A DNA stretch of 36,885 nt, taken from IMG/VR virus record IMGVR_UViG_3300047667_000778, positions 1 through 36,885 of that record; one strand, 5' to 3'. Made by a program: the position numbers and the translations under genes. The notes beneath the pieces are model-generated. The model saw only the letters and a program-made list of their open reading frames with translations. It was not told the DNA's origin and made no database searches. The DNA is from a virus. Below are positions 1 to 36,885 of the stretch, one piece after another; the stretch's first letter is position 1; each line of letters begins with the position of its first letter.

Positions 1-37
1 TTTTAGAGATGCGCTTAATGATTCCTGTTATTTCCAT
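1..37 (-). CDS. DUF3127 ssDNA-binding-like protein, N-terminal fragment cut by window edge
   Basis: The first 12 codons (MEITGIIKRISK) of the gene that is complete at 33688-34047 are present here and then cut by the left edge of the window. The sequence is the same as in the complete copy. It is a partial copy because of the edge, not a pseudogene. Confidence 0.8.
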   Translation of the reverse strand, partial: MEITGIIKRISK

Positions 38-42
38 GTTTG

Positions 43-186
43 TTATTTAATTGTTTGTTTTTTTGACATATTTTGACCCCATAAGGCGAGGAATATAACT
101 AACGATAATTTCCAACCAAACCAAAGGCAACCCAGAGCCATTGATGTTAGTCCTATTACCATCCCTAAATAGTGTAATGCTTTCAT
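43..186 (-). CDS. Small membrane protein, 47 aa (left copy)
   Basis: A 47-codon gene with ATG at 186 and TAA at 43. The protein (MKALHYLGMVIGL...) is largely hydrophobic from about residue 5 to 37 and ends in a short basic tail (MSKKQTIK). It probably spans the membrane once or twice. It sits directly downstream of the 71-aa membrane gene and upstream of the DUF3127 start. The right copy at 34053-34196 differs by one residue (T14 here, A there), which supports it as a translated gene. Function unknown. Confidence 0.65.
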   Translation of the reverse strand: MKALHYLGMVIGLTSMALGCLWFGWKLSLVIFLALWGQNMSKKQTIK

Positions 187-189
187 AAT

Positions 190-405
190 TTATTTGTTAA
201 ATTGTTTAATCGGTGCAATAATCAAAGATAAGGCAACGGCCCCAAACCCCGCAGCTAATCCCAATAATAAACAGACCCCGTAAATAATAAAGGCGTTTAC
301 TAATGGGTTGACTTTCCCGCTTTCGATTGCGATAAAGTACGCGGCAAGGAATGAGAGCAAGGTACAGGTCGTTATCATTATCGCGGTTTTCGTTTGCTGT
401 TTCAT
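190..405 (-). CDS. Small two-helix membrane protein, 71 aa (left copy)
   Basis: Begins MKQQTKTAIMITTC and has two hydrophobic segments (about residues 8-28 and 36-64) separated by a short polar turn, with a basic C-terminus. The ATG at 405 lies one base after the stop of the DnaA-C-like gene. The right copy (34525-34740) is near-identical, with conservative changes (A/S, V/I) and a swapped final pair. A small inner-membrane protein is the safest call. Holin-like topology is possible, but the gene sits with recombination genes, not with the lysis genes at 3450-4398. Confidence 0.75.
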   Translation of the reverse strand: MKQQTKTAIMITTCTLLSFLAAYFIAIESGKVNPLVNAFIIYGVCLLLGLAAGFGAVALSLIIAPIKQFNK

Positions 406-406
406 C

Positions 407-703
407 TTACTTTAATTTTCGGTTAATAGCTAATCTCAATCTCTGCTTAAGTACGTCGTCCGCGTTCATTATAAACTTAGTCCGGTACGTACTCGCGTTC
501 CCTTTGTTTAGGGCTATGTACTTAGAAGCAACCACTCCGGAGATACCAATCTCTGAGCTTATAAACATGTAAGCGCCACGGGCCTTAGTTATGTCATCGT
601 TCCCGCCTCGCCCCGCGTCTTGCTTTGCGGTCATGTCATCGCGGCTTACCTTGTACGATTTGCAAACCACGGTTAGAACGTGGTCTAGTATTGTGTTGTT
701 CAT
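407..703 (-). CDS. DnaA domain IV-like DNA-binding protein, 98 aa (left copy)
   Basis: Residues about 6-85 resemble the C-terminal DNA-binding domain of DnaA: a first helix (ILDHVLTVVCKSYKVSRDDM), then a basic stretch with an ITKARGAYMFISSEI helix, then a helix-turn-helix with SKYIALNKGNASTYRTKF, comparable to the DnaA signature around the DHST motif. No AAA+ ATPase part is present. It may bind a phage origin or regulate transcription (inference). Its ATG overlaps the stop of the 67-aa gene (TAATG). The right copy at 35415-35711 differs by one residue (I/L). Confidence 0.7.
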   Translation of the reverse strand: MNNTILDHVLTVVCKSYKVSRDDMTAKQDAGRGGNDDITKARGAYMFISSEIGISGVVASKYIALNKGNASTYRTKFIMNADDVLKQRLRLAINRKLK

Positions 704-906
704 TATTTTGTTTCTAATGTGTCTATAAAATCACTCCAGTATTCATACCCTTCAGGTGAGGAAATCCATGAAAAAGCACTGTATAAGCTTAATACTAAAG
801 AATCTCGATTAGTTTTAAGTTTATGAGTACTAGTATTAGCTATTGCTTTCGCTCTGATTTTTGGGTCTTCGATCGTTTCAAACCACTTTTTTGTTGTCTG
901 TCTCAT
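703..906 (-). CDS. Conserved small phage protein, 67 aa (left allele)
   Basis: A small acidic protein with KKWFETIEDP near the N-terminus and an aromatic C-terminal part (SAFSWISSPEGYEYW). Such short proteins with an F-W...EG.EYW pattern recur in early regions of phages; the function is not known to me. It overlaps both neighbours by one base. Against the right allele (35712-35915) only about 39 of 67 residues are identical, while flanking genes are at least 97% identical, so the gene has been exchanged or is under diversifying selection. Confidence 0.7.
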   Translation of the reverse strand: MRQTTKKWFETIEDPKIRAKAIANTSTHKLKTNRDSLVLSLYSAFSWISSPEGYEYWSDFIDTLETK

Positions 907-1766
907 TACTTGTTATTTAATTGTTTGTTAAGTTCCTTCACTGCCATCTCTACGCGAGAGGTTAATAGTTCCTTGTCTGTTTGCGGAATGTCAAAAGTCC
1001 AGGAGGTTAAATCCTTATATTCTGATGCGTCCACTAAGTAGGGAAAACTAGGCTCTTGCCCGTCCGTAAGAAAGCCGACTATTTGATTATAGATCCATTC
1101 GCATAAGAAAGGCGTTAACCCCTCGGCCTCTGGTACAAAGTCTTGACTAATCCAATCTCTAATGTCTGGCAGTTCACTAGCGTAAGGCACGTAAATAATA
1201 CTCTCGCCTTGGTCAAACTCAATATCTAGTTTGCTCTCAAGTAGGCAAGCGTTGCTAACTAACTGCCAATAGTTCTCTGCCTTATCTACTTTGTAAACAT
1301 CAAGCCCCGCCTTTATCGCTTCGACTGTATCACAGTAAGCAGTTAAGCTCCACGGGCATTTGATATCTCCTACTATGTTATTATCTATCGTAGCCCGTAA
1401 AGCGTCAGGGATGCCGTTCCATCGTGCTATGGTTTTATGTTCCACTCGGCCTTGTTGGTTGCCGTCGCGATAATTCATATCTAACTTGCGCTCGAAGACA
1501 TAACGCTCCATGACCTTACCCCATGTTAAAGGTCTTGCGTGACTTTCACTTTCTAAGGATCTCATTAGTTTCTCCTCTCTTACCTTTTCCTTGATATAGG
1601 ATAGGGTAGTCGTGCCTAATATCTTAGGATCTTCAATTTGCTTTACTGAACTACCAACTCCCTTCTTAGGTCTCGCGGCTAGTTCGTCCTTTGTCATTGA
1701 TCGCTTACCCACACCTATTAATCTATGTGCGCTTGAGCTGCTAAAGTTGGCTACTCTAGTAATCAT
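906..1766 (-). CDS. YqaJ-type (lambda exonuclease-like) recombinase nuclease, 286 aa (left copy)
   Basis: A PD-(D/E)xK nuclease of the YqaJ/lambda Exo family, expected to resect double-stranded DNA ends 5' to 3' for single-strand-annealing recombination. Visible core: W82-G83 with E87 (TWGKVMERY), G118-I-P-D121, D134-I-K136 (GDIKCPW) and YWQL at 167-169, in the order expected of the family. The length is usual. It overlaps its partner at 1763-2260 by four bases (ATGA), and a DUF3127 protein follows nearby, so this is a recombination module. The right copy at 35915-36775 differs at about eight residues. Confidence 0.88.
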   Translation of the reverse strand: MITRVANFSSSSAHRLIGVGKRSMTKDELAARPKKGVGSSVKQIEDPKILGTTTLSYIKEKVREEKLMRSLESESHARPLTWGKVMERYVFERKLDMNYRDGNQQGRVEHKTIARWNGIPDALRATIDNNIVGDIKCPWSLTAYCDTVEAIKAGLDVYKVDKAENYWQLVSNACLLESKLDIEFDQGESIIYVPYASELPDIRDWISQDFVPEAEGLTPFLCEWIYNQIVGFLTDGQEPSFPYLVDASEYKDLTSWTFDIPQTDKELLTSRVEMAVKELNKQLNNK

Positions 1767-2260
1767 TTAAGGGCCTGTAAGTACTTAATGGTCTTAGCAT
1801 ATGAGCTTACCTCTTGATTGATTACAATGTCATTTAACCGCTCTTCTAAGCTTTCTGGCATAAGCTTAAACTTCTCATCCCTTAGCGCTATTAATACCTC
1901 AAGTGTGTAAACAGGAATAGGTTTAACCCGAACAACATCCATGCTTTCCTTTGTTTTTCGATCAGTCCATTCACCAATGTATAAGCAAATTTGAACCCCT
2001 TTAGAGTCTTCCATAAACTTTACGCCGCCATACTTTACAATATCTATTGCGTTACCTGCGTTACAAATCCAAGGCTTAACACCTTCTTCCTGAAACTTTA
2101 CTATTCGTTTAGAATCTACTTTATTGCTTACGGGATCAGTAACCGCTTCCCATTGTGCTGACTCAATAGTCAGTATCAGCTCACCGCTTTCTGGTAAGTC
2201 CCAGTGTCCGAGGTAGTTTTTATTTGGTGATTGCATCCAGTGTGTTTTCTCGTTGCTCAT
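1763..2260 (-). CDS. Probable recombination partner/ssDNA-binding-like protein, 165 aa
   Basis: Begins MSNEKTHWMQSPNKNYLGHW and contains GELILTIES, then KPWICNAGNAIDIVKYGG and a beta-rich centre (GVQICLYIGEW). This resembles a protein common in phages of Bacteroidetes that has an HW...NPNYLG opening and lies directly upstream of YqaJ exonucleases. Role in recombination is inferred from that fixed neighbourhood; a single-strand-binding or annealing function is plausible but unproven. The 32 nt just upstream of the ATG are a copy of the 3' end of the gene at 2528-2740. Its C-terminal end is repeated at 36772-36885. Confidence 0.65.
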   Translation of the reverse strand: MSNEKTHWMQSPNKNYLGHWDLPESGELILTIESAQWEAVTDPVSNKVDSKRIVKFQEEGVKPWICNAGNAIDIVKYGGVKFMEDSKGVQICLYIGEWTDRKTKESMDVVRVKPIPVYTLEVLIALRDEKFKLMPESLEERLNDIVINQEVSSYAKTIKYLQALK

Positions 2261-25655: not shown

Positions 25656-25913
25656 TTAACCTCTAAAATTGCTTATTTTAATCATATCTGTATCGTCATC
25701 TAACACTATGTTTTCACGTACAATCAAGCTCATTTCATGTAAGTCAGTAAAATGACGTAATGTTTGAGACTTATTAAAGCCTAATACACGGCTCCAATCA
25801 CTAGGAGTTCCCGCAATAACATCTCCTTCTTGACTGAGCAGGTAGAATAATATTCCTTTCTGAGTTGGTGATAGGTTTGTGTTTTTAAACGTGTTGTTGT
25901 CGAATGTTTGCAT
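25656..25913 (-). CDS. Mini winged helix-turn-helix protein, 85 aa (paralogue 1)
   Basis: After a short leader comes NLSPTQKGILFYLLSQ, a recognition region (SDWSRVLGFNKSQTLRHFTDLHEM) and a wing with LIVRENIVLDDD, ending KISNFRG. It shares the 'LSPxQ..IL.YL ... L ... LH.M..(L)VREN ... I.(I)S.F' layout with three other genes at 29091, 31264 and 31585. Probably binds DNA as a transcription or replication factor. First gene after the promoter at 25939-25968 and thus head of the 25.9-21.7 kb block. Confidence 0.75.
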   Translation of the reverse strand: MQTFDNNTFKNTNLSPTQKGILFYLLSQEGDVIAGTPSDWSRVLGFNKSQTLRHFTDLHEMSLIVRENIVLDDDTDMIKISNFRG

Positions 25914-27146: not shown

Positions 27147-28034
27147 TTAGTTCGTTTCCATTAAATCAATCGGTGACATATCAATAGCCACACACTCCGC
27201 AAAATAATCCTTAACCGATAGAAGTTGAGCGCGGTTTTTAATTGCCTCTGATACCGTGTTAGACTTGCCTAACTCCACCCGCTTAACCTCCTCAATTTTC
27301 ACCTTAGCGGCCCCTTTTGTGATCGGGTTAATCATTGCCTCCTTAGCTTCGATCATTATTTCGTCTTTCGCTCTCTGAATGTATCGCCAAGCTGTGTCTT
27401 TTGTAATGTTCAGGATCTTGAGATCTACACAAAGCCGATAAATAAATGATCCCGCTAGTACTTGGCCGTTCTTGTAGGAGTCGAACGCGGTCATTATAGC
27501 CTCTTTCTTTTGTTCTGCTGGCATTTCTTTGGGGTTTGCTTGTCTTTCTACCTCTTCACTTCTTAAGGCTATTAGCGTGGCTCTTTTGAGTTCCTTAGTC
27601 GCTGCCGTTCTCGTTTGCGTTTCATAGCCTCTAAGCCATCCAATCATAGTTTGTGAGGTAAGATGTCGCGGAGTCTCTCCAAGTTCACCTAGCGCCCCCA
27701 TACGGAACGCAATCGATAACTCGCGGGTTGTCCAGTTGAAACACTTAGCCCGCAAATGTCGCATCACATCTTCTTGAATCAGATTCGCCCTTTGCTCGTC
27801 CAGGTTGTTTTGCCCTAATCGCTCAACGGCTTTGTAACATTCCATCGCGATAACTTTTTTCAGATCCTTGTCGAGTTCGTTCCGAAGTGTGTTCTGGAGT
27901 CGGGCAGATAAAACCTCCATTGCTTGCACGTCCTTGATGTTTAGCTTATCTAAATCCTCTTGAGTGCTTAGTTGTTTGCTAGGATTAAATAACGCAAGAG
28001 AGCTTTGATTTTTTAACTTTTCAATGTTTGCCAT
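27147..28034 (-). CDS. Conserved replication-region protein, 295 aa
   Basis: Mostly helical. The centre has FNWTTRELSIAFRMGALGEL, then HLTSQTMIGWLRGYETQTRT, a conserved block I associate with phage and prophage proteins next to DnaD-like replication genes. Basic C-terminal half with KDTAWRYIQRAKDEIM. It overlaps the DnaD-like gene by one base. A helicase loader or DNA-binding replication role is a guess; no Walker motif is present, so it is not itself an ATPase. Confidence 0.55.
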   Translation of the reverse strand: MANIEKLKNQSSLALFNPSKQLSTQEDLDKLNIKDVQAMEVLSARLQNTLRNELDKDLKKVIAMECYKAVERLGQNNLDEQRANLIQEDVMRHLRAKCFNWTTRELSIAFRMGALGELGETPRHLTSQTMIGWLRGYETQTRTAATKELKRATLIALRSEEVERQANPKEMPAEQKKEAIMTAFDSYKNGQVLAGSFIYRLCVDLKILNITKDTAWRYIQRAKDEIMIEAKEAMINPITKGAAKVKIEEVKRVELGKSNTVSEAIKNRAQLLSVKDYFAECVAIDMSPIDLMETN

Positions 28035-28723
28035 TATTCGTCTGTGTTATAAAAAGTTTCTAAAAATACATCTTTACCGGTTCTCTTTGCGACTGGTTTG
28101 CTATTAAAATTATTAGAGTCCCAATTTGCAAGCCGATGCGATAAGCTCCAAGTTTTTAGCAATTCCTGTTTAAATTTTGAATTGCTTTTATTTGGCTCAG
28201 TCCAATAAGAATAAAATTTGTTAATCATATCCTTGCCGTATTGCTCTAAAAAAGGTTCTAGGGTATGAGCAAATTTTAATTTGCGATCCTCTATATTCTT
28301 AACTTCTTTAGGTTCTTTATTTTCTTTCTCTTCTTTAGTTGTTGTTATCTGTCTGTTATCTGTCTGTTGTTTGCCTGTTGTTTGTCTGTTGCTTGGCCTG
28401 TTATCTAGTGCCTCTTTACTCTGCAAATCTTCCCATTTCACTAGAGTTACAAGCTGATTTCTGTTTGTTGCTTGGCGTGTTACTTCTCCACTGCTCTCAA
28501 GCTTTGCCATTGCTGTCCTTACTTGCTGTGCTGATAAGTGAACACTGGCCGCTAATGTATCCCAAGATAACACCATAGAACCAGCCTTTATTACTTGGCC
28601 TTTCCATTTCTTATCCTCGTAATTAACTGAAATTAATAAGTGAACTAATAACCTTGTGGCGTTGTGATCGTCGTACCACTCCCAATTAATTAATGATCTA
28701 TGAAGCTTTATCCATCCGATCAT
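28034..28723 (-). CDS. DnaD-like replication initiation protein, 229 aa
   Basis: An N-terminal winged helix (IGWIKLHRSLINWEWYDD, then TRLLVHLLISVNYEDKKW, SWDTLAASVHLSAQQVRTAM) typical of phage replication initiators; a Gln/Asn/Thr/Lys linker (about 105-145) made of slipped repeats; and a C-terminal segment (INKFYSYWTEPNKSNSKFKQ, then KTWSLSHRLANW) like those of Bacteroidetes phage initiators. It presumably binds an origin and recruits host helicase. Confidence 0.75.
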   Translation of the reverse strand: MIGWIKLHRSLINWEWYDDHNATRLLVHLLISVNYEDKKWKGQVIKAGSMVLSWDTLAASVHLSAQQVRTAMAKLESSGEVTRQATNRNQLVTLVKWEDLQSKEALDNRPSNRQTTGKQQTDNRQITTTKEEKENKEPKEVKNIEDRKLKFAHTLEPFLEQYGKDMINKFYSYWTEPNKSNSKFKQELLKTWSLSHRLANWDSNNFNSKPVAKRTGKDVFLETFYNTDE

Positions 28724-28935
28724 TACCCTTGGTTTTTTATAAGTCCTATTTGCTTTCTTAGTTCTTTGTCAAATCTAATTGCAGTGGATAAATCTAATTC
28801 AATAAATGCTTCATCCCTTCCTTCTCTATCTTCAATAGAAATAAAAATCGCATCCGAACCTGTAGCAAATACTTCGATTAATTGATAGTTGCTGATATCA
28901 GTATTACCGATAAACTTTAAAGCCATTTTAGCCAT
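28723..28935 (-). CDS. Hypothetical protein, 70 aa
   Basis: MAKMALKFIGNTDISNYQLI, then EVFATGSDAIFISIEDREGR and an acidic helix ending LIKNQG. Beta-rich N-terminal half. Either Met1 or Met4 (28926) could start it. Overlaps the DnaD-like gene by one base and is the first gene after the small RNA at 28974-29068, so it may be expressed by read-through of that terminator. Confidence 0.6.
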   Translation of the reverse strand: MAKMALKFIGNTDISNYQLIEVFATGSDAIFISIEDREGRDEAFIELDLSTAIRFDKELRKQIGLIKNQG

Positions 28936-28973: not shown

Positions 28974-29068
28974 TAAAAAGCCTTATTAAGTCGGCAGGAT
29001 CTCACGTCTGCGTTCTTAATAAGGCTTAAATAATTTCGTGTAGCTTATACTGTGAGATCAGCTAACCC
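28974..29068 (-). ncRNA. Candidate small RNA with two kissing hairpins and its own terminator
   Basis: Hairpin 1: TAGCT/AGCTA (29060-29064 with 29041-29045) and a 14-nt loop holding GATCTCAC (29059-29052). Hairpin 2: 13 perfect pairs (29015-29027 with 28978-28990), an inner GCAG/CTGC, and an apical loop holding GTGAGATC (29005-28998). The two loop 8-mers are exactly complementary. TTTTT follows hairpin 2, so it is also a terminator. A TAnnTTTG promoter ends 3-5 nt before the 5' end. There is no open frame inside. Reads as a roughly 95-nt RNA, or an attenuating leader of the gene at 28723-28935. Confidence 0.75.
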
Positions 29069-29070
29069 TG

Positions 29071-29103
29071 CAAATATACTGCTTTATTCCTTACGTTTCC
29101 CAA
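29071..29103 (-). promoter_or_regulatory. Promoter of the candidate small RNA
   Basis: Minus strand: TATATTTG at 29071-29078 (exact TAnnTTTG), with TTG at 29101-29103 after a 22-nt spacer, within the accepted 17-23 range. It overlaps the 3' end of the winged-helix gene at 29091-29333. Same -7 octamer as the terS promoter. Confidence 0.65.
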
Positions 29104-29333
29104 TTACTTAAAATAATTCCAGCTCCGTAGATTTTATTAAACACTAAATATCCCGCGTCCTGGAGGTGGTAAATGTTTTGGTACAAAGTCGGTTTCGCAA
29201 TCCCTAACTCGTAGCTGAGTGCCTTTAGCGTTGTGTCTAGCTCCGTGACTTCTAAGCTGTTTAAGTAGCACAAGATTACTTTGTCGATTGGTGAGAGGTC
29301 TGGGTTGGTTGTGATGTTCTGGATTGATTCCAT
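29091..29333 (-). CDS. Mini winged helix-turn-helix protein, 80 aa (paralogue 2)
   Basis: NPDLSPIDKVILCYLNSLEV, then LKALSYELGIAKPTLYQNIY and HLQDAGYLVFNKIYGAGIIL, ending SNWET. A clear winged helix: helix 1 after LSP, recognition helix KPTLYQNIYHL, wing YLVFNK. The leader (AATTTTCAAACCACCACATG) is nearly the same as that of the next upstream gene (AATTTTTAAACAACCACATG), another local duplication. Related to the genes at 25656, 31264 and 31585. Confidence 0.75.
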   Translation of the reverse strand: MESIQNITTNPDLSPIDKVILCYLNSLEVTELDTTLKALSYELGIAKPTLYQNIYHLQDAGYLVFNKIYGAGIILSNWET

Positions 29334-31263: not shown

Positions 31264-31530
31264 TTACGGTCTAAAATCGCTTAACCTAATCCCGTGCCTC
31301 TCTCCTGGCTTCCCGACGTTCTCGCGTACAAGGTAGCCCATATCATGCAGAGTTCGAGTCTGAGCCATTACCGCAGACTTACCGAGTCCTAACTTAATGC
31401 TTAAGTCGTTAAGCTTGCCCTCCAGAAAGTCATCCTCTAGAGTGTTAAGGTAGATCAAGATAATGCGCTGGATCGGGGTTAGCTTTCGGTTTTGAATTAT
31501 GGTTTGATAGGCTGTTGGGTCTTGGTTCAT
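31264..31530 (-). CDS. Mini winged helix-turn-helix protein, 88 aa (paralogue 3)
   Basis: RKLTPIQRIILIYLNTLEDD, then LNDLSIKLGLGKSAVMAQTR and TLHDMGYLVRENVGKPGERH, ending GIRLSDFRP. The recognition helix (KSAVMAQTRTL) is different from those of the other three paralogues while the framework is conserved, as expected if each binds its own site. Head-to-tail with paralogue 4 at 31585. Confidence 0.8.
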   Translation of the reverse strand: MNQDPTAYQTIIQNRKLTPIQRIILIYLNTLEDDFLEGKLNDLSIKLGLGKSAVMAQTRTLHDMGYLVRENVGKPGERHGIRLSDFRP

Positions 31531-31584: not shown

Positions 31585-31848
31585 CTACCCTCTAAACTCG
31601 CTTATCAAGATCCCCACCTTCGACAGGGTTTTCTTCTTCATGTACTTTAAGCGCACCAACTCGCGCACAGCTAACCGGATAGTGTACTCGTTTAGGTTTG
31701 TGTCCTCGCCTAGTATCGTGTAGTTAGTAATTATTTCGTCAAGGGGCTGCGCGTGTAAGTATATTAATAAAGCCGTTTGGGTTGGGCTTAGGTCTGGGTT
31801 CGCTAGGATGTTTAAGATCGTGGCGAGGGATTGTGTCGGGTTCTGCAT
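31585..31848 (-). CDS. Mini winged helix-turn-helix protein, 87 aa (paralogue 4)
   Basis: ATG at 31848 (MQNPTQSLATIL); a GTG at 31881 would add 11 residues. ANPDLSPTQTALLIYLHAQP, then TNLNEYTIRLAVRELVRLKY and MKKKTLSKVGILISEFRG. Same layout as the other three, with the ending I-S-E-F-R-G equal to I-S-N-F-R-G in paralogue 1. The wing is Lys-rich. Not essential to the same operon position; likely a diverged duplicate. Confidence 0.75.
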   Translation of the reverse strand: MQNPTQSLATILNILANPDLSPTQTALLIYLHAQPLDEIITNYTILGEDTNLNEYTIRLAVRELVRLKYMKKKTLSKVGILISEFRG

Positions 31849-31880
31849 GGGGGAGTTTTTAAGGGTGTTATAATTTAGCA

Positions 31881-32198
31881 CTAAAAAGGAACTACTTTTG
31901 AATTTTTAGCCCAATAATACAAATCTTTCCTTGTTTTTTCTTCTTCAAAATCAACGTAAAACCCTACGTGACCCCCAAACTCTTTTACTTCTTTTCTATC
32001 AAAACAATTGTAATACAACCCGTATTTCACCTGCCCAATTCTTCCAGTGTTTAAAGCGTCTTCAATAAAATCACTTTCATTTATTTTGTTTCCCTTACTG
32101 TCCCTTACTCCTGTATATCTACAAGAAAAAGCCGAAATTATAACACTTGGTATAGTGCATTGCTCGGTTTCTGTTTTTTTACTATCTGATTTATTCAT
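31881..32198 (-). CDS. YopX-like phage protein, 105 aa
   Basis: After a polar N-terminus: YTGVRDSKGNKINESDFIED, then GRIGQVKYGLYYNCFDRKEV and a C-terminal WAKNSKVV. This follows the YopX pattern (G..D..G..I.EGD.V...G.V......), although the usual EGD is ESD here. YopX proteins are common small phage products of unknown role. First gene after the promoter at 32220-32251. Confidence 0.65.
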   Translation of the reverse strand: MNKSDSKKTETEQCTIPSVIISAFSCRYTGVRDSKGNKINESDFIEDALNTGRIGQVKYGLYYNCFDRKEVKEFGGHVGFYVDFEEEKTRKDLYYWAKNSKVVPF

Positions 32199-33687: not shown

Positions 33688-34047
33688 TCACCAAGGAAGA
33701 TCATCATCTTCATCATTAGCAAGCGGAGCCATTGAAGGTGCTGGTGCTGCTGGTTGACTAGGTGCAGGCGCTTGACTTGATTTGTCAACTTTCCAACCGA
33801 CTATGGTATTAAAAAACTTAACCTCGCCTTGTGGGGATGTCCATTCTCTGCCTCTAATATTAATGCCGATCGTAACCTCCTGCCCTTTACTAAGCCCGTC
33901 TAACAGGCTTACTTTGTCCTGATGGCACTCTATGCTGATCTGCTGCGGGTACTGCTCCGCTGTGGTGATTACGACCTCGCGCTTCTTAAACTGGGCGCTT
34001 ACTTCCATCGTTTTAGAGATGCGCTTAATGATTCCTGTTATTTCCAT
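33688..34047 (-). CDS. DUF3127 single-strand-binding-like protein, 119 aa
   Basis: An OB-fold-like N-terminal domain (MEITGIIKRISKTMEVSAQF, REVVITTAEQYPQQISIECH, GQEVTIGINIRGREWTSPQG, FFNTIVGWKV; residues 1-88) is followed by a Pro/Ala/Gln linker and an acidic tip, NDEDDDLPW, which resembles the DDDIPF tip of bacterial SSB used to recruit partners. DUF3127 is a mainly Bacteroidetes family. Likely the phage SSB for recombination and replication. The first 12 codons recur at 1-37. Confidence 0.85.
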   Translation of the reverse strand: MEITGIIKRISKTMEVSAQFKKREVVITTAEQYPQQISIECHQDKVSLLDGLSKGQEVTIGINIRGREWTSPQGEVKFFNTIVGWKVDKSSQAPAPSQPAAPAPSMAPLANDEDDDLPW

Positions 34048-34052
34048 GTTTG

Positions 34053-34196
34053 TTATTTAATTGTTTGTTTTTTTGACATATTTTGACCCCATAAGGCGAG
34101 AAATATAACTAACGATAATTTCCAACCAAACCAAAGGCAACCCAAAGCCATTGATGCTAGTCCTATTACCATCCCTAAATAGTGTAATGCTTTCAT
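34053..34196 (-). CDS. Small membrane protein, 47 aa (right copy)
   Basis: ATG at 34196, TAA at 34053; same gene as 43-186, with Ala instead of Thr at position 14. Hydrophobic from about 5 to 37, basic end. In this copy its upstream neighbour is the 101-aa gene instead of the 71-aa gene. Confidence 0.65.
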   Translation of the reverse strand: MKALHYLGMVIGLASMALGCLWFGWKLSLVIFLALWGQNMSKKQTIK

Positions 34197-34213
34197 AATT
34201 TATTTGTTAAAAT

Positions 34214-34519
34214 TTATAATAGCTTGCTTCCGTTGCGCCCTTTCTTAAATTTATTGATTGCGCTTTTTTTATTTAACGCTGAAACGTAGGTGTAACCCTC
34301 TTCAGTAATTATCTCTTGATTATTTACAACGCCAAATTTATAGCTAGTGTTTGTAATTCGTGCCTCTTTTATTGATTTAGAAATATTGTCTATTTCCCAT
34401 AGAGTATGCCCTTGGTGAGGAATTATTGTACCTATTAACTCCTTTTCTATTCCCTTTCTTTTTTTAATAGAAAGCTCAGTTGTGTGCTTATGGTTTAATA
34501 AAGAGTCTATGTTGCTCAT
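34214..34519 (-). CDS. Hypothetical protein, 101 aa, present only in the right copy
   Basis: MSNIDSLLNHKHTTELSIKK, then RKGIEKELIGTIIPHQGHTL and a basic C-terminus (SAINKFKKGRNGSKLL). No recognised domain, soluble and basic. In the left copy the sequence jumps from TTTGTTAAA directly to ATTGTTTAATCGG, so this gene is an insertion/deletion between variants. Codon use is more A/T-rich than in its neighbours. Confidence 0.6.
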   Translation of the reverse strand: MSNIDSLLNHKHTTELSIKKRKGIEKELIGTIIPHQGHTLWEIDNISKSIKEARITNTSYKFGVVNNQEIITEEGYTYVSALNKKSAINKFKKGRNGSKLL

Positions 34520-34524
34520 TTGAT

Positions 34525-34740
34525 CTAGTTTTTAAATTGTTTAATCGGTGCAATAATCAAAGATAAAGCAACGGCCCCAAACCCCGCAGCTAATCCCAAT
34601 AATAAACACACCCCGTAAATAATAAAGGCGTTCACTAATGGGTTAATTTTCCCGCTCTCGATTGCGATAAAGTACGCGGAAAGGAATGATAACAGGGTGC
34701 AGGTGGTTATCATTATTGCGGTTTTTGTTTGCTGTTTCAT
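34525..34740 (-). CDS. Small two-helix membrane protein, 71 aa (right copy)
   Basis: Same protein as at 190-405 with a few conservative changes. I start at the ATG at 34740 because it overlaps the stop of the upstream gene (ATGA) and matches the left copy; a TTG at 34758 would add six residues absent from the other copy. Confidence 0.75.
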   Translation of the reverse strand: MKQQTKTAIMITTCTLLSFLSAYFIAIESGKINPLVNAFIIYGVCLLLGLAAGFGAVALSLIIAPIKQFKN

Positions 34741-34940
34741 GGTGTGTTGTTTTTCCAATCACCATCAGCGTCTAGGTGGCTAGGTGGCCATCCGTGCTTA
34801 CTTACCATTACCATTCTCATTAGCCTAGTCCATATTCTAAGCAATCCATTTACTAAGAAGTATGCAGCACCATTAAACAGTATTGCAAATCCTACAAATT
34901 CCCACAGGCCACTTAAGGCAAACTTTATTATTTCTATCAT
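34737..34940 (-). CDS. Small membrane protein, 67 aa, present only in the right copy
   Basis: MIEIIKFALSGLWEFVGFAI begins a hydrophobic stretch (about 5-37 with LFNGAAYFLVNGLLRIW), followed by a basic region and HGWPPSHLDADGDWKNNTP. Small phage membrane proteins with this start (IEIIKFAL.G.W.F.G) are common. ATGA overlap with the 71-aa gene. Part of the about 685-nt block missing on the left. Confidence 0.65.
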   Translation of the reverse strand: MIEIIKFALSGLWEFVGFAILFNGAAYFLVNGLLRIWTRLMRMVMVSKHGWPPSHLDADGDWKNNTP

Positions 34941-34977
34941 AATTTATCGTTTTAATGTTTACTAACACTTTTTAGAA

Positions 34978-35145
34978 TTAATTTTTTATCTTTGACTCTA
35001 ACTTTAATATGTATTTTCCTATTTTTGTATTTATAAATTCTTTATGCTCTTCGGCCCTTGTAGCCCATCCTCCGCTCACCACTAAGCCGCACAAATATTC
35101 AGTATGCCATTCGTATTTTAGGGGTGTTTCTTTTAATAGTTTCAT
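34978..35145 (-). CDS. Hypothetical protein, 55 aa, present only in the right copy
   Basis: ATG at 35145, TAA at 34978. MKLLKETPLKYEWHTEYLCG continues LVVSGGWATRAEEHKEFINT and ends LESKIKN. No family recognised. The bases upstream of its ATG (CGAAAATTAAAGTAAG) are the same as those upstream of the 71-aa gene in the left copy, so the left variant looks like a direct ATG-to-ATG replacement. Confidence 0.6.
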   Translation of the reverse strand: MKLLKETPLKYEWHTEYLCGLVVSGGWATRAEEHKEFINTKIGKYILKLESKIKN

Positions 35146-35162
35146 CTTACTTTAATTTTCGG

Positions 35163-35408
35163 TTAATCAATATCATTTCCTAGACATTTGTGCTTTTTGT
35201 AATCCCAATTTTCACACCATTCTTGTGCTTCTTTTTCTGTTGGAAAAACTATCTCTTCCCATAAAGAATTAAATCGAATATCCTTTTTACTGTGATTCAC
35301 TACACAATAGTAGTCTCCATTACCCGTAGTTGTGTATTCAAATATAAATCCTTTTGATCTACCTGTGTAGTCAATATCACCCCATGATGTTTTACTTGTA
35401 AATTTCAT
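35163..35408 (-). CDS. Hypothetical protein, 81 aa, present only in the right copy
   Basis: MKFTSKTSWGDIDYTGRSKG, then FIFEYTTTGNGDYYCVVNHS and EKEAQEWCENWDYKKHKCLG. Beta-rich with a C-terminal helix. No family recognised. Its end shares TTTTCGGTTAAT with the end of the DnaA-C-like gene, which may have guided recombination. Confidence 0.6.
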   Translation of the reverse strand: MKFTSKTSWGDIDYTGRSKGFIFEYTTTGNGDYYCVVNHSKKDIRFNSLWEEIVFPTEKEAQEWCENWDYKKHKCLGNDID

Positions 35409-35414
35409 AATCCG

Positions 35415-35711
35415 TTACTTCAATTTTCGGTTAATAGCTAATCTCAATCTTTGCTTAAGTACGTCGTCCGCGTTCAGTATAAACTTAGTCCGGTACGTAC
35501 TCGCGTTCCCTTTGTTTAGGGCTATGTACTTAGAAGCAACCACTCCGGATATACCAATCTCTGAGCTTATAAACATATAAGCACCCCTGGCCTTAGTTAT
35601 GTCATCGTTCCCGCCTCGGCCTGCGTCTTGCTTTGCGGTCATGTCATCGCGGCTTACCTTGTACGATTTGCAAACCACGGTTAGAACGTGGTCTAGTATT
35701 GTGTTGTTCAT
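35415..35711 (-). CDS. DnaA domain IV-like DNA-binding protein, 98 aa (right copy)
   Basis: Identical to the protein at 407-703 except Leu for Ile in KFILNADD. The same ITKARGAYMFISSEI and SKYIALNKGNASTYR segments are present. Here its stop is followed by the 81-aa gene rather than the 71-aa gene. It starts one base after the stop of the 67-aa allele. Confidence 0.7.
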   Translation of the reverse strand: MNNTILDHVLTVVCKSYKVSRDDMTAKQDAGRGGNDDITKARGAYMFISSEIGISGVVASKYIALNKGNASTYRTKFILNADDVLKQRLRLAINRKLK

Positions 35712-35915
35712 TTATTTGTTGTTTAGTGTAGCTGTAAAATCCTCCCAGTATTTGTGCTTTTCTAGCGACAAACCCCATGTAAAAGCATTATATAAGCTAC
35801 TTACTAATGAAGGGCTTAATAATTCAAGTCGATCACGACTAGTATTAGCTATTGCGTTCGCTCTGATTTCTGGGTCTTCGATTGTTTCGAACCACTCTTT
35901 AACTGTCTTTTCCAT
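35712..35915 (-). CDS. Conserved small phage protein, 67 aa (right allele)
   Basis: MEKTVKEWFETIEDPEIRAN, then a variable middle and AFTWGLSLEKHKYWEDFTAT. Same length and framework as 703-906 but only about 58% identical, with conserved WFETIEDP and YW residues. Divergence stops sharply at the flanking genes. Confidence 0.7.
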   Translation of the reverse strand: MEKTVKEWFETIEDPEIRANAIANTSRDRLELLSPSLVSSLYNAFTWGLSLEKHKYWEDFTATLNNK

Positions 35916-36775
35916 TACTTGTTATTTAATTGTTTGTTAAGTTCCTTCACTGCCATCTCTACGCGAGAGGTTAATAGTTCCTTGTCTGTTTGCGGGATAT
36001 CAAAAGTCCAGGAGGTTAAATTGGTATATTCTGATGCATCCATTAGGTAGGGAAAACTAGGCTCTTGACCGTCCGTAAGAAAGCCGACTATTTGATTATA
36101 GATCCACTCGCATAAGAAAGGCGTTAACCCCTCGGCTTCTGGTACAAAGTCCTGACTAATCCAATCTCTAATGTCTGGCAGTTCACTAGCATAAGGCACG
36201 TAAATAATGCTCTCGCCTTGGTCAAATTCAATATCTAGTTTGCTCTCAAGTAGGCAAGCGTTGCTAACTAACTGCCAGTAGTTCTCTGCCTTATCTACTT
36301 TGTAAACATCAAGCCCCGCGTTTTTTGCTTCGACTGTATCACAGTAAGCTGTTAAGCTCCACGGGCATTTAATATCTCCCACTATGTTATTATCTATCGT
36401 AGCCCGTAAAGCGTCTGGAATGCCGTTCCAGCGTGCTATGGTTTTATGTTCCACTCGGCCTTGTTGGTTGCCATCGCGGTAATTCATATCTAACTTGCGC
36501 TCGAAAACATAACGCTCTATGACCTTGCCCCAAGTTAAAGGTCTTGCGTGGCTTTCACTTTCTAAGGATCTCATTAGTTTTTCCTCTCTTACCTTCTCCT
36601 TGATATAAGATAGCGTAGTCGTGCCTAATATCTTAGGATCTTCAATTTGCTTGACTGAACTACCGACTCCCTTCTTAGGTCGCGCGGCTAGTTCGTCCTT
36701 TGTCATTGGTCGCTTACCTGCGCCTATTAATCTATGCGCGCTTGAGCTGCTGAAATTTGCTACTCTGGTAATCAT
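35915..36775 (-). CDS. YqaJ-type recombinase nuclease, 286 aa (right copy)
   Basis: Same enzyme as 906-1766, about 97% identical, with all motif residues kept (W82/G83/E87, D121, D134-K136, Q168). Differences cluster in variable positions (GVGKRS/GAGKRP, EAIKAG/EAKNAG, EYKDL/EYTNL), and most nucleotide changes are silent, so both copies are under purifying selection. Four-base overlap with the partner gene. Confidence 0.88.
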   Translation of the reverse strand: MITRVANFSSSSAHRLIGAGKRPMTKDELAARPKKGVGSSVKQIEDPKILGTTTLSYIKEKVREEKLMRSLESESHARPLTWGKVIERYVFERKLDMNYRDGNQQGRVEHKTIARWNGIPDALRATIDNNIVGDIKCPWSLTAYCDTVEAKNAGLDVYKVDKAENYWQLVSNACLLESKLDIEFDQGESIIYVPYASELPDIRDWISQDFVPEAEGLTPFLCEWIYNQIVGFLTDGQEPSFPYLMDASEYTNLTSWTFDIPQTDKELLTSRVEMAVKELNKQLNNK

Positions 36776-36885
36776 TTAAGGGCCTGTAAGTACTTATTGG
36801 TCTTAGCATATGAGCTTACCTCTTGATTGATTACAATGTCATTTAACCGCTCTTCTAAGCTTTCTGGCATAAGCTTAAACTTCTC
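36772..36885 (-). CDS. Recombination partner protein, C-terminal fragment cut by window edge
   Basis: The last 37 codons of the gene that is complete at 1763-2260; the rest lies beyond the window edge. One residue differs (KTNKYLQALK here, KTIKYLQALK there). Confidence 0.8.
   Translation of the reverse strand, partial: EKFKLMPESLEERLNDIVINQEVSSYAKTNKYLQALK

Follow-up and report, generated by a model that had tools for sequence, protein, structure and literature searches.

The window analysed here, a stretch of viral DNA of 36,885 nucleotides, carries upstream of a replication gene a short RNA element in which the apical loops of two hairpins are complementary. Comparison of relatives at the sequence level shows that this complementarity is maintained by selection. 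Judged by its homologues, the element is widespread in viruses of Bacteroidota bacteria, with a shape that is strictly conserved and letters that are not. It is considered fairly probable that the element is a leader attenuator which acts in cis on the replication operon and in which the loop-loop contact modulates termination. As such, it probably decides whether the replication gene is transcribed.

Organization of the element in the window

The promoter, two hairpins and T-run which the original prediction had placed within about 100 nt were all located on the minus strand (29078-28974), in the order promoter, hairpin 1, linker and hairpin 2. The features described below are likewise on the minus strand. 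The promoter has a Bacteroidota-type -7 box, TATATTTG (29071-29078), kept at the same place before the homologous RNAs. Hairpin 1 (29041-29064) is formed by the stem TAGCT (29064-29060)/AGCTA (29045-29041) and a 14-nt loop, GATCTCACAGTATA, within which lies the first kissing strand, GATCTCAC (29052-29059). An A/T-rich linker of 13 nt, CACGAAATTATTT (29028-29040), separates it from hairpin 2 (28978-29027). The latter consists of a 13-bp lower stem, AAGCCTTATTAAG (29027-29015)/CTTAATAAGGCTT (28990-28978), an inner stem of 4 bp, GCAG (29011-29008)/CTGC (28997-28994), an internal loop AAC/CGA between the two, and an apical loop with the second kissing strand, GTGAGATC (28998-29005). Hairpin 2 had been taken as separate from the terminator; because its lower stem leads into the T-run (28975-28979), it is itself the intrinsic terminator.

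The claimed loop-loop match is exact, with GATCTCAC and GTGAGATC complementary at 8 of 8 positions. Both 8-mers are unpaired in the centroid structure computed with RNAfold, and none of 200 shuffled sequences was equally stable (z = -3.35). No other copy of either 8-mer was seen anywhere in the 36.9-kb window. When the loops of the window RNA were shuffled 20,000 times, an 8-nt match arose 18 times; among 24,524 position pairs picked arbitrarily in the window, 79 matched over 8 nt. The match in the window alone is only moderately improbable, about 1 in 1000, and the case therefore rests on the relatives.

The gene upstream of the RNA (29091-29333) encodes 80 amino acids, ends just short of the promoter and has no PHROG match. 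By eye its product is probably a winged-helix protein, and its counterpart also precedes the RNA in the related loci L014-L017. Four small proteins encoded on the minus strand of the window (25656-25913, 29091-29333, 31264-31530 and 31585-31881) look alike by eye. They have an LSPxxKxILxYLxxLE-like motif and end in xSxFRG or LSNWET; possibly they are winged-helix regulators that are paralogous to one another. A 70-aa ORF (28723-28935) with its ATG 39 nt past the T-run separates the RNA from the replication gene. It has no PHROG match, and a direct search of viral contigs gave no relatives of it; small ORFs similar to it occupy the same spot in other phages. The putative controlled gene (28034-28723) encodes a DnaD-like helicase loader (phrog_2514, 1.3e-19; phrog_186, 3.6e-12). 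About 2 kb of genes recur, in the same order and at 92-97% identity, at both ends of the window (1-1876 and about 34011-36885). Either the genome is circular and its ends were assembled from two strain variants, or this is a true duplication with small insertions.

Relatives of the element

Contigs of close relatives were reached via the neighbouring phosphoesterase/exonuclease and helicase-loader genes; a scan of the genome collection with the phosphoesterase/exonuclease gave one contig, L163. The close relatives retain the upstream gene, the promoter and the two-hairpin plan, and differ in their loops, with the pairs GTGATGCT/AGCATCAC in L015, AGTCGAGA/TCTCGACT in L016 and GTCATGC/GCATGAC in L014. 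RNAfold places the complementary stretches of the relatives in both apical loops, and in L016 each is an 8-nt loop fully complementary to the other. In L014, another TATATTTG promoter, with a strong terminator behind it (AAAGGAGGTTAGTA/TACTAGCCTCTTTT) and no loop complementarity, lies just before the kissing RNA (L014:3487-3600).

A descriptor search (promoter, hairpin, terminator, and at least 7 complementary nt between the two loops) of the same loci revealed the same plan in unrelated contigs at other gene positions. Over all loci, it found at least 97 distinct RNAs versus 5 in the same sequences reversed. Among the matches listed, the numbers were 43 versus 2 at 8 nt, and 7 versus 0 at 9 nt. 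Most of these RNAs came from scans of viral contigs for TATATTTG, TACATTTG or TATCTTTG followed 66-94 nt on by RGGYTTTTTT, in which complementarity was not required; each of the three scans gave at least 120 matches. Hosts of the metagenomic contigs were predicted from the promoter type and from cultured relatives.

The RNAs fall into several subclasses. Class 1, which includes the window RNA, has a 14-nt hairpin 1 loop ending in ATA. Another subclass has a tight loop of 7-8 nt and an internal loop GAGTA/GAAA which, in its letters, resembles a bulged-G motif. Further subclasses have a long hairpin 1 and an extra small hairpin within the linker. The median linker length is 16 nt (interquartile range 13-18) in the 97 RNAs among the matches listed. 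In 84 of these 97, again among the matches listed, one strand of the kissing helix starts with (N)GU, that of hairpin 1 in 55 and that of hairpin 2 in 29. Two copies of the element with different codes are present in each of tooticki6-1 and L378.

Cultured phages were chosen by replication protein or by name. The element stands before the replication gene in phages 11b, phi18:3, phi13:2, phi19:3, elemoA_1-9A, tooticki6-1, lillamy9-1, stinky9-1, Harreka_1 and P12002L, with small ORFs intervening in some of them. Of these, phi18:3 is a phage of Cellulophaga baltica, P12002L of Polaribacter, Harreka_1 of Olleya and lillamy9-1 of Flavobacterium. Phages phi13:2 and phi19:3 have a 9-nt complementarity, yet their hairpin 1 is weak or missing. 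The element was not found in Nonlabens P12024L or Flavobacterium FCL-2, and Vibrio 1.182 and two Dulem viruses lack it at their replication loci. The records of the cultured phages that carry it annotate no RNA at the site.

Selection on the loop-loop pairing

Since the 97 RNAs had been selected for complementarity, class 1 was redefined on the backbone alone, as promoter, 5-bp stem, 14-nt loop ending in ATA, and terminator. A loop-loop match of 8-9 nt is present in 30 of the 31 loci so defined, while shuffled loops reach 7 nt in 0.9%. In the 31 class-1-type descriptor matches, 245 of 248 kissing positions are Watson-Crick pairs, as against 152 +/- 7.5 when partners were shuffled. All the positions that are not Watson-Crick (3/248) belong to one spurious locus, L167. 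The window RNA has the class 1 features, namely a 5-bp hairpin 1, a 14-nt loop, and a terminator hairpin with an inner stem.

Pair counts were carried out on 12 gap-free RNAs from an alignment of 17, with the structure named beforehand. Overall, 99.4% of cells pair and both-sided change is seen at 22 of 28 pairs; none of 500 shuffles reached the observed values, and slid controls came nowhere near. For the kissing helix, all 96 cells are paired and 6 of 8 pairs show both-sided change, with no one-sided change and no wobble. The 5-bp stem of hairpin 1 covaries at 5 of 5 pairs in the 12 relatives. A covariance model was built from the 12 RNAs with the kissing pairs and the window left out. It finds the window at 53.6 bits (E 5e-9) and also Cellulophaga phage phi18:3 (E 5e-5).

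The covariance check proposed with the original prediction thus gave compensatory changes in the hairpins and in the kissing helix, and homologous loci keep both the stems and the loop complementarity, the opposite of what had been named as counter-evidence. The view that the match is unlikely by chance does not carry far for a single window and stands for the relatives, with 30 of 31 class 1 RNAs and 12 of 12 aligned RNAs. A folded functional RNA with loop-loop pairing, as had been suggested, is well supported by these data.

Unpaired nucleotides are also conserved. In the 12-RNA alignment, AAG and TTATT in the linker, TGAA/GGAT in the internal loop and the ATA tail of the loop are invariant, and the AC/GT end of the kissing helix is invariant in 30 class 1 RNAs. 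Hypervariability of the loops was considered and dropped, since they vary only slightly faster than the backbone (mean identity 0.61 versus 0.74). For the same reason, selection for distinct loop identities is not claimed.

Genes downstream of the element

In 54 of 86 cases among the matches listed, 0-20 nt separate the T-run from the first ORF of at least 100 aa, and one of these ORFs overlaps it; in most of the remaining cases a small ORF lies in between. An ORF of at least 50 codons starts no more than 25 nt from the T-run in 75 of 97 RNAs, and a second TANNTTTG occurs in only 2 of those 75 (shuffled mean 4.5; both counts among the matches listed). Because the gap from T-run to ATG is mostly too short for a promoter of its own, the downstream gene must usually be read through the terminator.

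The expected position before replication genes was borne out, with the element on the coding strand directly before the replication gene. Going by family matches, most of the genes behind the element encode replication initiators or helicase loaders, and these are of unrelated kinds. The proteins match PHROG families of DnaD-like helicase loaders, replication initiation and primosomal proteins. Among the matches listed, 24 of 86 match Pfam DUF6291, 6 of 86 are NUMOD4/HNH homing endonucleases, and ERF, methylase, ParB and helicase genes account for one or two cases each. Replication is, on these assignments, the main but not the sole gene context of the element. It is not tied to the DnaD-like protein family as such, since the DnaD-like loci L006-L013 have no terminator of such build in the 600 nt before the matched stretch. 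Promoter-terminator pairs that lack the loop match have a nearby ORF less often (51/105, among the matches listed) and a more mixed downstream content; some of them are probably missed members.

HNH homing endonuclease-like genes lie directly behind the kissing RNA in L045, L075, L096, L100, L104 and L167:11590, as if a homing endonuclease were exploiting this junction. A variant of the element was seen before ERF recombinase genes (L030:1158, L032:1154, L033:1128 and L038:1128, plus strand). Its 5' stretch, CATAAAGGTYGCA, is conserved, and its terminator loop is TGCRAC; the Y/R position covaries, but the 5' partner is not in a clear hairpin.

A leader attenuator as the proposed mechanism

According to the reading favoured here, the transcript from TATATTTG would start with hairpin 1, and a kissing helix of 7-9 bp would form between the loop of hairpin 1 and that of the terminator, hairpin 2. 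The replication initiator or helicase-loader gene lies downstream on the same strand, and its expression would need read-through of hairpin 2. The kissing contact may set the level of this read-through. Hairpin 1 is made first and could catch the loop of hairpin 2 before the lower stem closes. With a linker of 13-18 nt, holding this grip while the lower stem zips up would be strained, and a nascent leader by itself would favour read-through. The released RNA of about 95 nt, which has both loops, could replace the internal contact in trans and so bring about termination. Once many copies have accumulated, termination would restrain replication in a dose-dependent manner. Much less confidence attaches to the sign of the effect and to the trans step than to the cis attenuator itself. 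The kissing could as well stabilize the terminator, in which case the contact would help termination.

The kissing duplex amounts to about -10 kcal/mol. By crude geometry, among the matches listed, 72% of linkers, when fully stretched, would be long enough for a straight stack made up of hairpin 1, the kissing helix and the complete hairpin 2, and in 28% of the RNAs the linker is too short for it; with the lower stem open, all RNAs can form the stack. This modelling suggests that the contact may compete with closure of the terminator. Scaling of linker length with stack length, expected if a full coaxial stack were spanned, was also looked for, and the correlation is negative.

A third copy of the loop code within 3 kb was seen in none of the 97 elements among the matches listed (2.3 expected), and opposite-strand TANNTTTG was not enriched in them (13 seen, 12.4 expected). 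On these counts a separate antisense RNA or a second target nearby is unlikely, and the only evident partner is thus the RNA itself. The attenuator or copy-control-like role raised in the original prediction is favoured by the location on the coding strand, by a gap from T-run to ATG that is usually too short for a promoter, and by the lack of a third code copy nearby.

It is possible, and put forward tentatively, that the element is a self-addressed copy-number or immunity RNA with its own 8-nt loop code in both partners. The terminated leader would then kiss the nascent leaders of all other genome copies sharing its code, thereby silencing the replication initiator. If this were true, neither a separate antisense gene nor a repressor protein would be needed.

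Other explanations of the element

The element is a complete unit with its own promoter and terminator, and its conserved TGAA/GGAT internal loop and ATA loop tail could be protein contacts. It might on these grounds be a stand-alone small RNA of about 95 nt with a compact, nuclease-resistant kissing fold, which acts in trans on phage or host RNA or protein and owes its position to operon order only. This is doubtful. The downstream ATG is usually within 25 nt of the T-run, so that the gene inevitably comes under the influence of the terminator. Further copies of the loop code are lacking both within 3 kb and in the rest of the window, and the association with replication genes holds for initiators of unrelated families. 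The suggested action of a small RNA on the host or on coinfecting phages found no positive support.

The invariant unpaired nucleotides of the 12-RNA alignment (AAG and TTATT in the linker, TGAA/GGAT, ATA) and the invariant AC/GT end in the 30 class 1 RNAs would agree with a protein-responsive leader. Here a phage or host protein, either an antiterminator or the initiator itself, would bind the kissing RNA and switch termination, with the loop pairing as a scaffold only. However, the downstream genes, the upstream genes and the RNA subclasses vary widely, so that no single phage-encoded partner is evident; a host factor is possible. On balance this explanation is improbable.

A constant place beside replication initiators would also suit an element of the replication origin, whose transcript serves as primer or origin activator beside the initiator gene and whose hairpins serve primer processing. 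A primer, however, needs no strong terminator directly before a gene, and similar elements stand before methylase, ParB and homing-endonuclease genes, which makes such a role very improbable. Chance or a repeat artefact, to which the roughly 1 in 1000 match of the single window might still point, is already refuted by the at least 97 matches versus 5 in reversed sequence, by both-sided change at 22 of 28 pairs with 0 of 500 shuffles at the observed values, and by the match of 8-9 nt in 30 of 31 class 1 loci defined without complementarity.

Comparison with known systems

Little is known of the control of replication onset in Bacteroidota phages. The presence of at least 97 distinct copies before replication genes of unrelated protein families suggests a shared RNA switch that annotation has missed. 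If confirmed, the leader attenuator would be a compact regulatory part in which the loop of a terminator serves as its address. The pairing code varies from phage to phage and is strictly Watson-Crick, so that two-sided mutants can test the pairing directly.

In line with the original prediction, which knew of no such family, none was matched in Rfam or in the open-access literature; yet the element proved to be a widespread family that extends beyond one phage. With Rfam 15 at the gathering score, the window and 16 loci bearing relatives gave no family at the element and only tRNA elsewhere. At permissive thresholds, 7 loci yielded six weak matches, all of them unrelated and well short of their gathering scores. 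The open-access literature searched held nothing on such an RNA.

The CI RNA of phage P4 pairs with sequences of the leader it belongs to, and the premature termination that this brings about stops expression of the P4 replication genes (PMC4825925). Like P4 CI RNA with seqA-seqC, the present element is part of a phage leader that precedes replication genes on their coding strand and has short complementary stretches in one transcript; its proposed output, transcription termination, is alike (PMC4825925). In the same account, CI RNA is released from the leader by processing, and the sites with which it pairs lie apart from it, one upstream and one downstream. The partners here are, in contrast, the apical loops of the 5' hairpin and of the terminator, with no third site within 3 kb. 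IsrK of the prophage Gifsy-1 is described as a terminated RNA acting on its own read-through transcript, and the short terminated RNA and read-through mRNA from one promoter are a feature in common (PMC4825925). IsrK acts, unlike the present element, on translation of an antirepressor, and the passages cited describe no terminator-loop kissing for it.

The pT181 system controls a replication gene. Its attenuator uses kissing hairpins and has internal loops in the stems, so that attenuators of this type share with the present element an intrinsic terminator in a replication-gene leader, kissing hairpins and internal loops (PMC4878617). Whereas pT181 uses an antisense RNA, the complementary loop is here in the same RNA, and TANNTTTG on the opposite strand is not enriched.

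The phage c4 RNA has short complementary stretches in the operon that encodes it and targets an antirepressor mRNA; the element is alike in the former and differs in the latter. This P1/P7 antisense RNA is Rfam family RF01695 (PMC2864571). The present element, unlike c4, matches no Rfam family at the gathering score in the loci scanned. The put RNA of phage HK022 changes termination and forms two hairpins where an early phage transcript begins. The element is similar in having two hairpins at the start of a phage transcript, and is set apart from put, for which we know of no terminator of its own and no loop-loop complementarity. The element would work like P4 CI RNA, IsrK and pT181 but is filed under none of them, because opposite-strand TANNTTTG is not enriched and no third site was seen within 3 kb.
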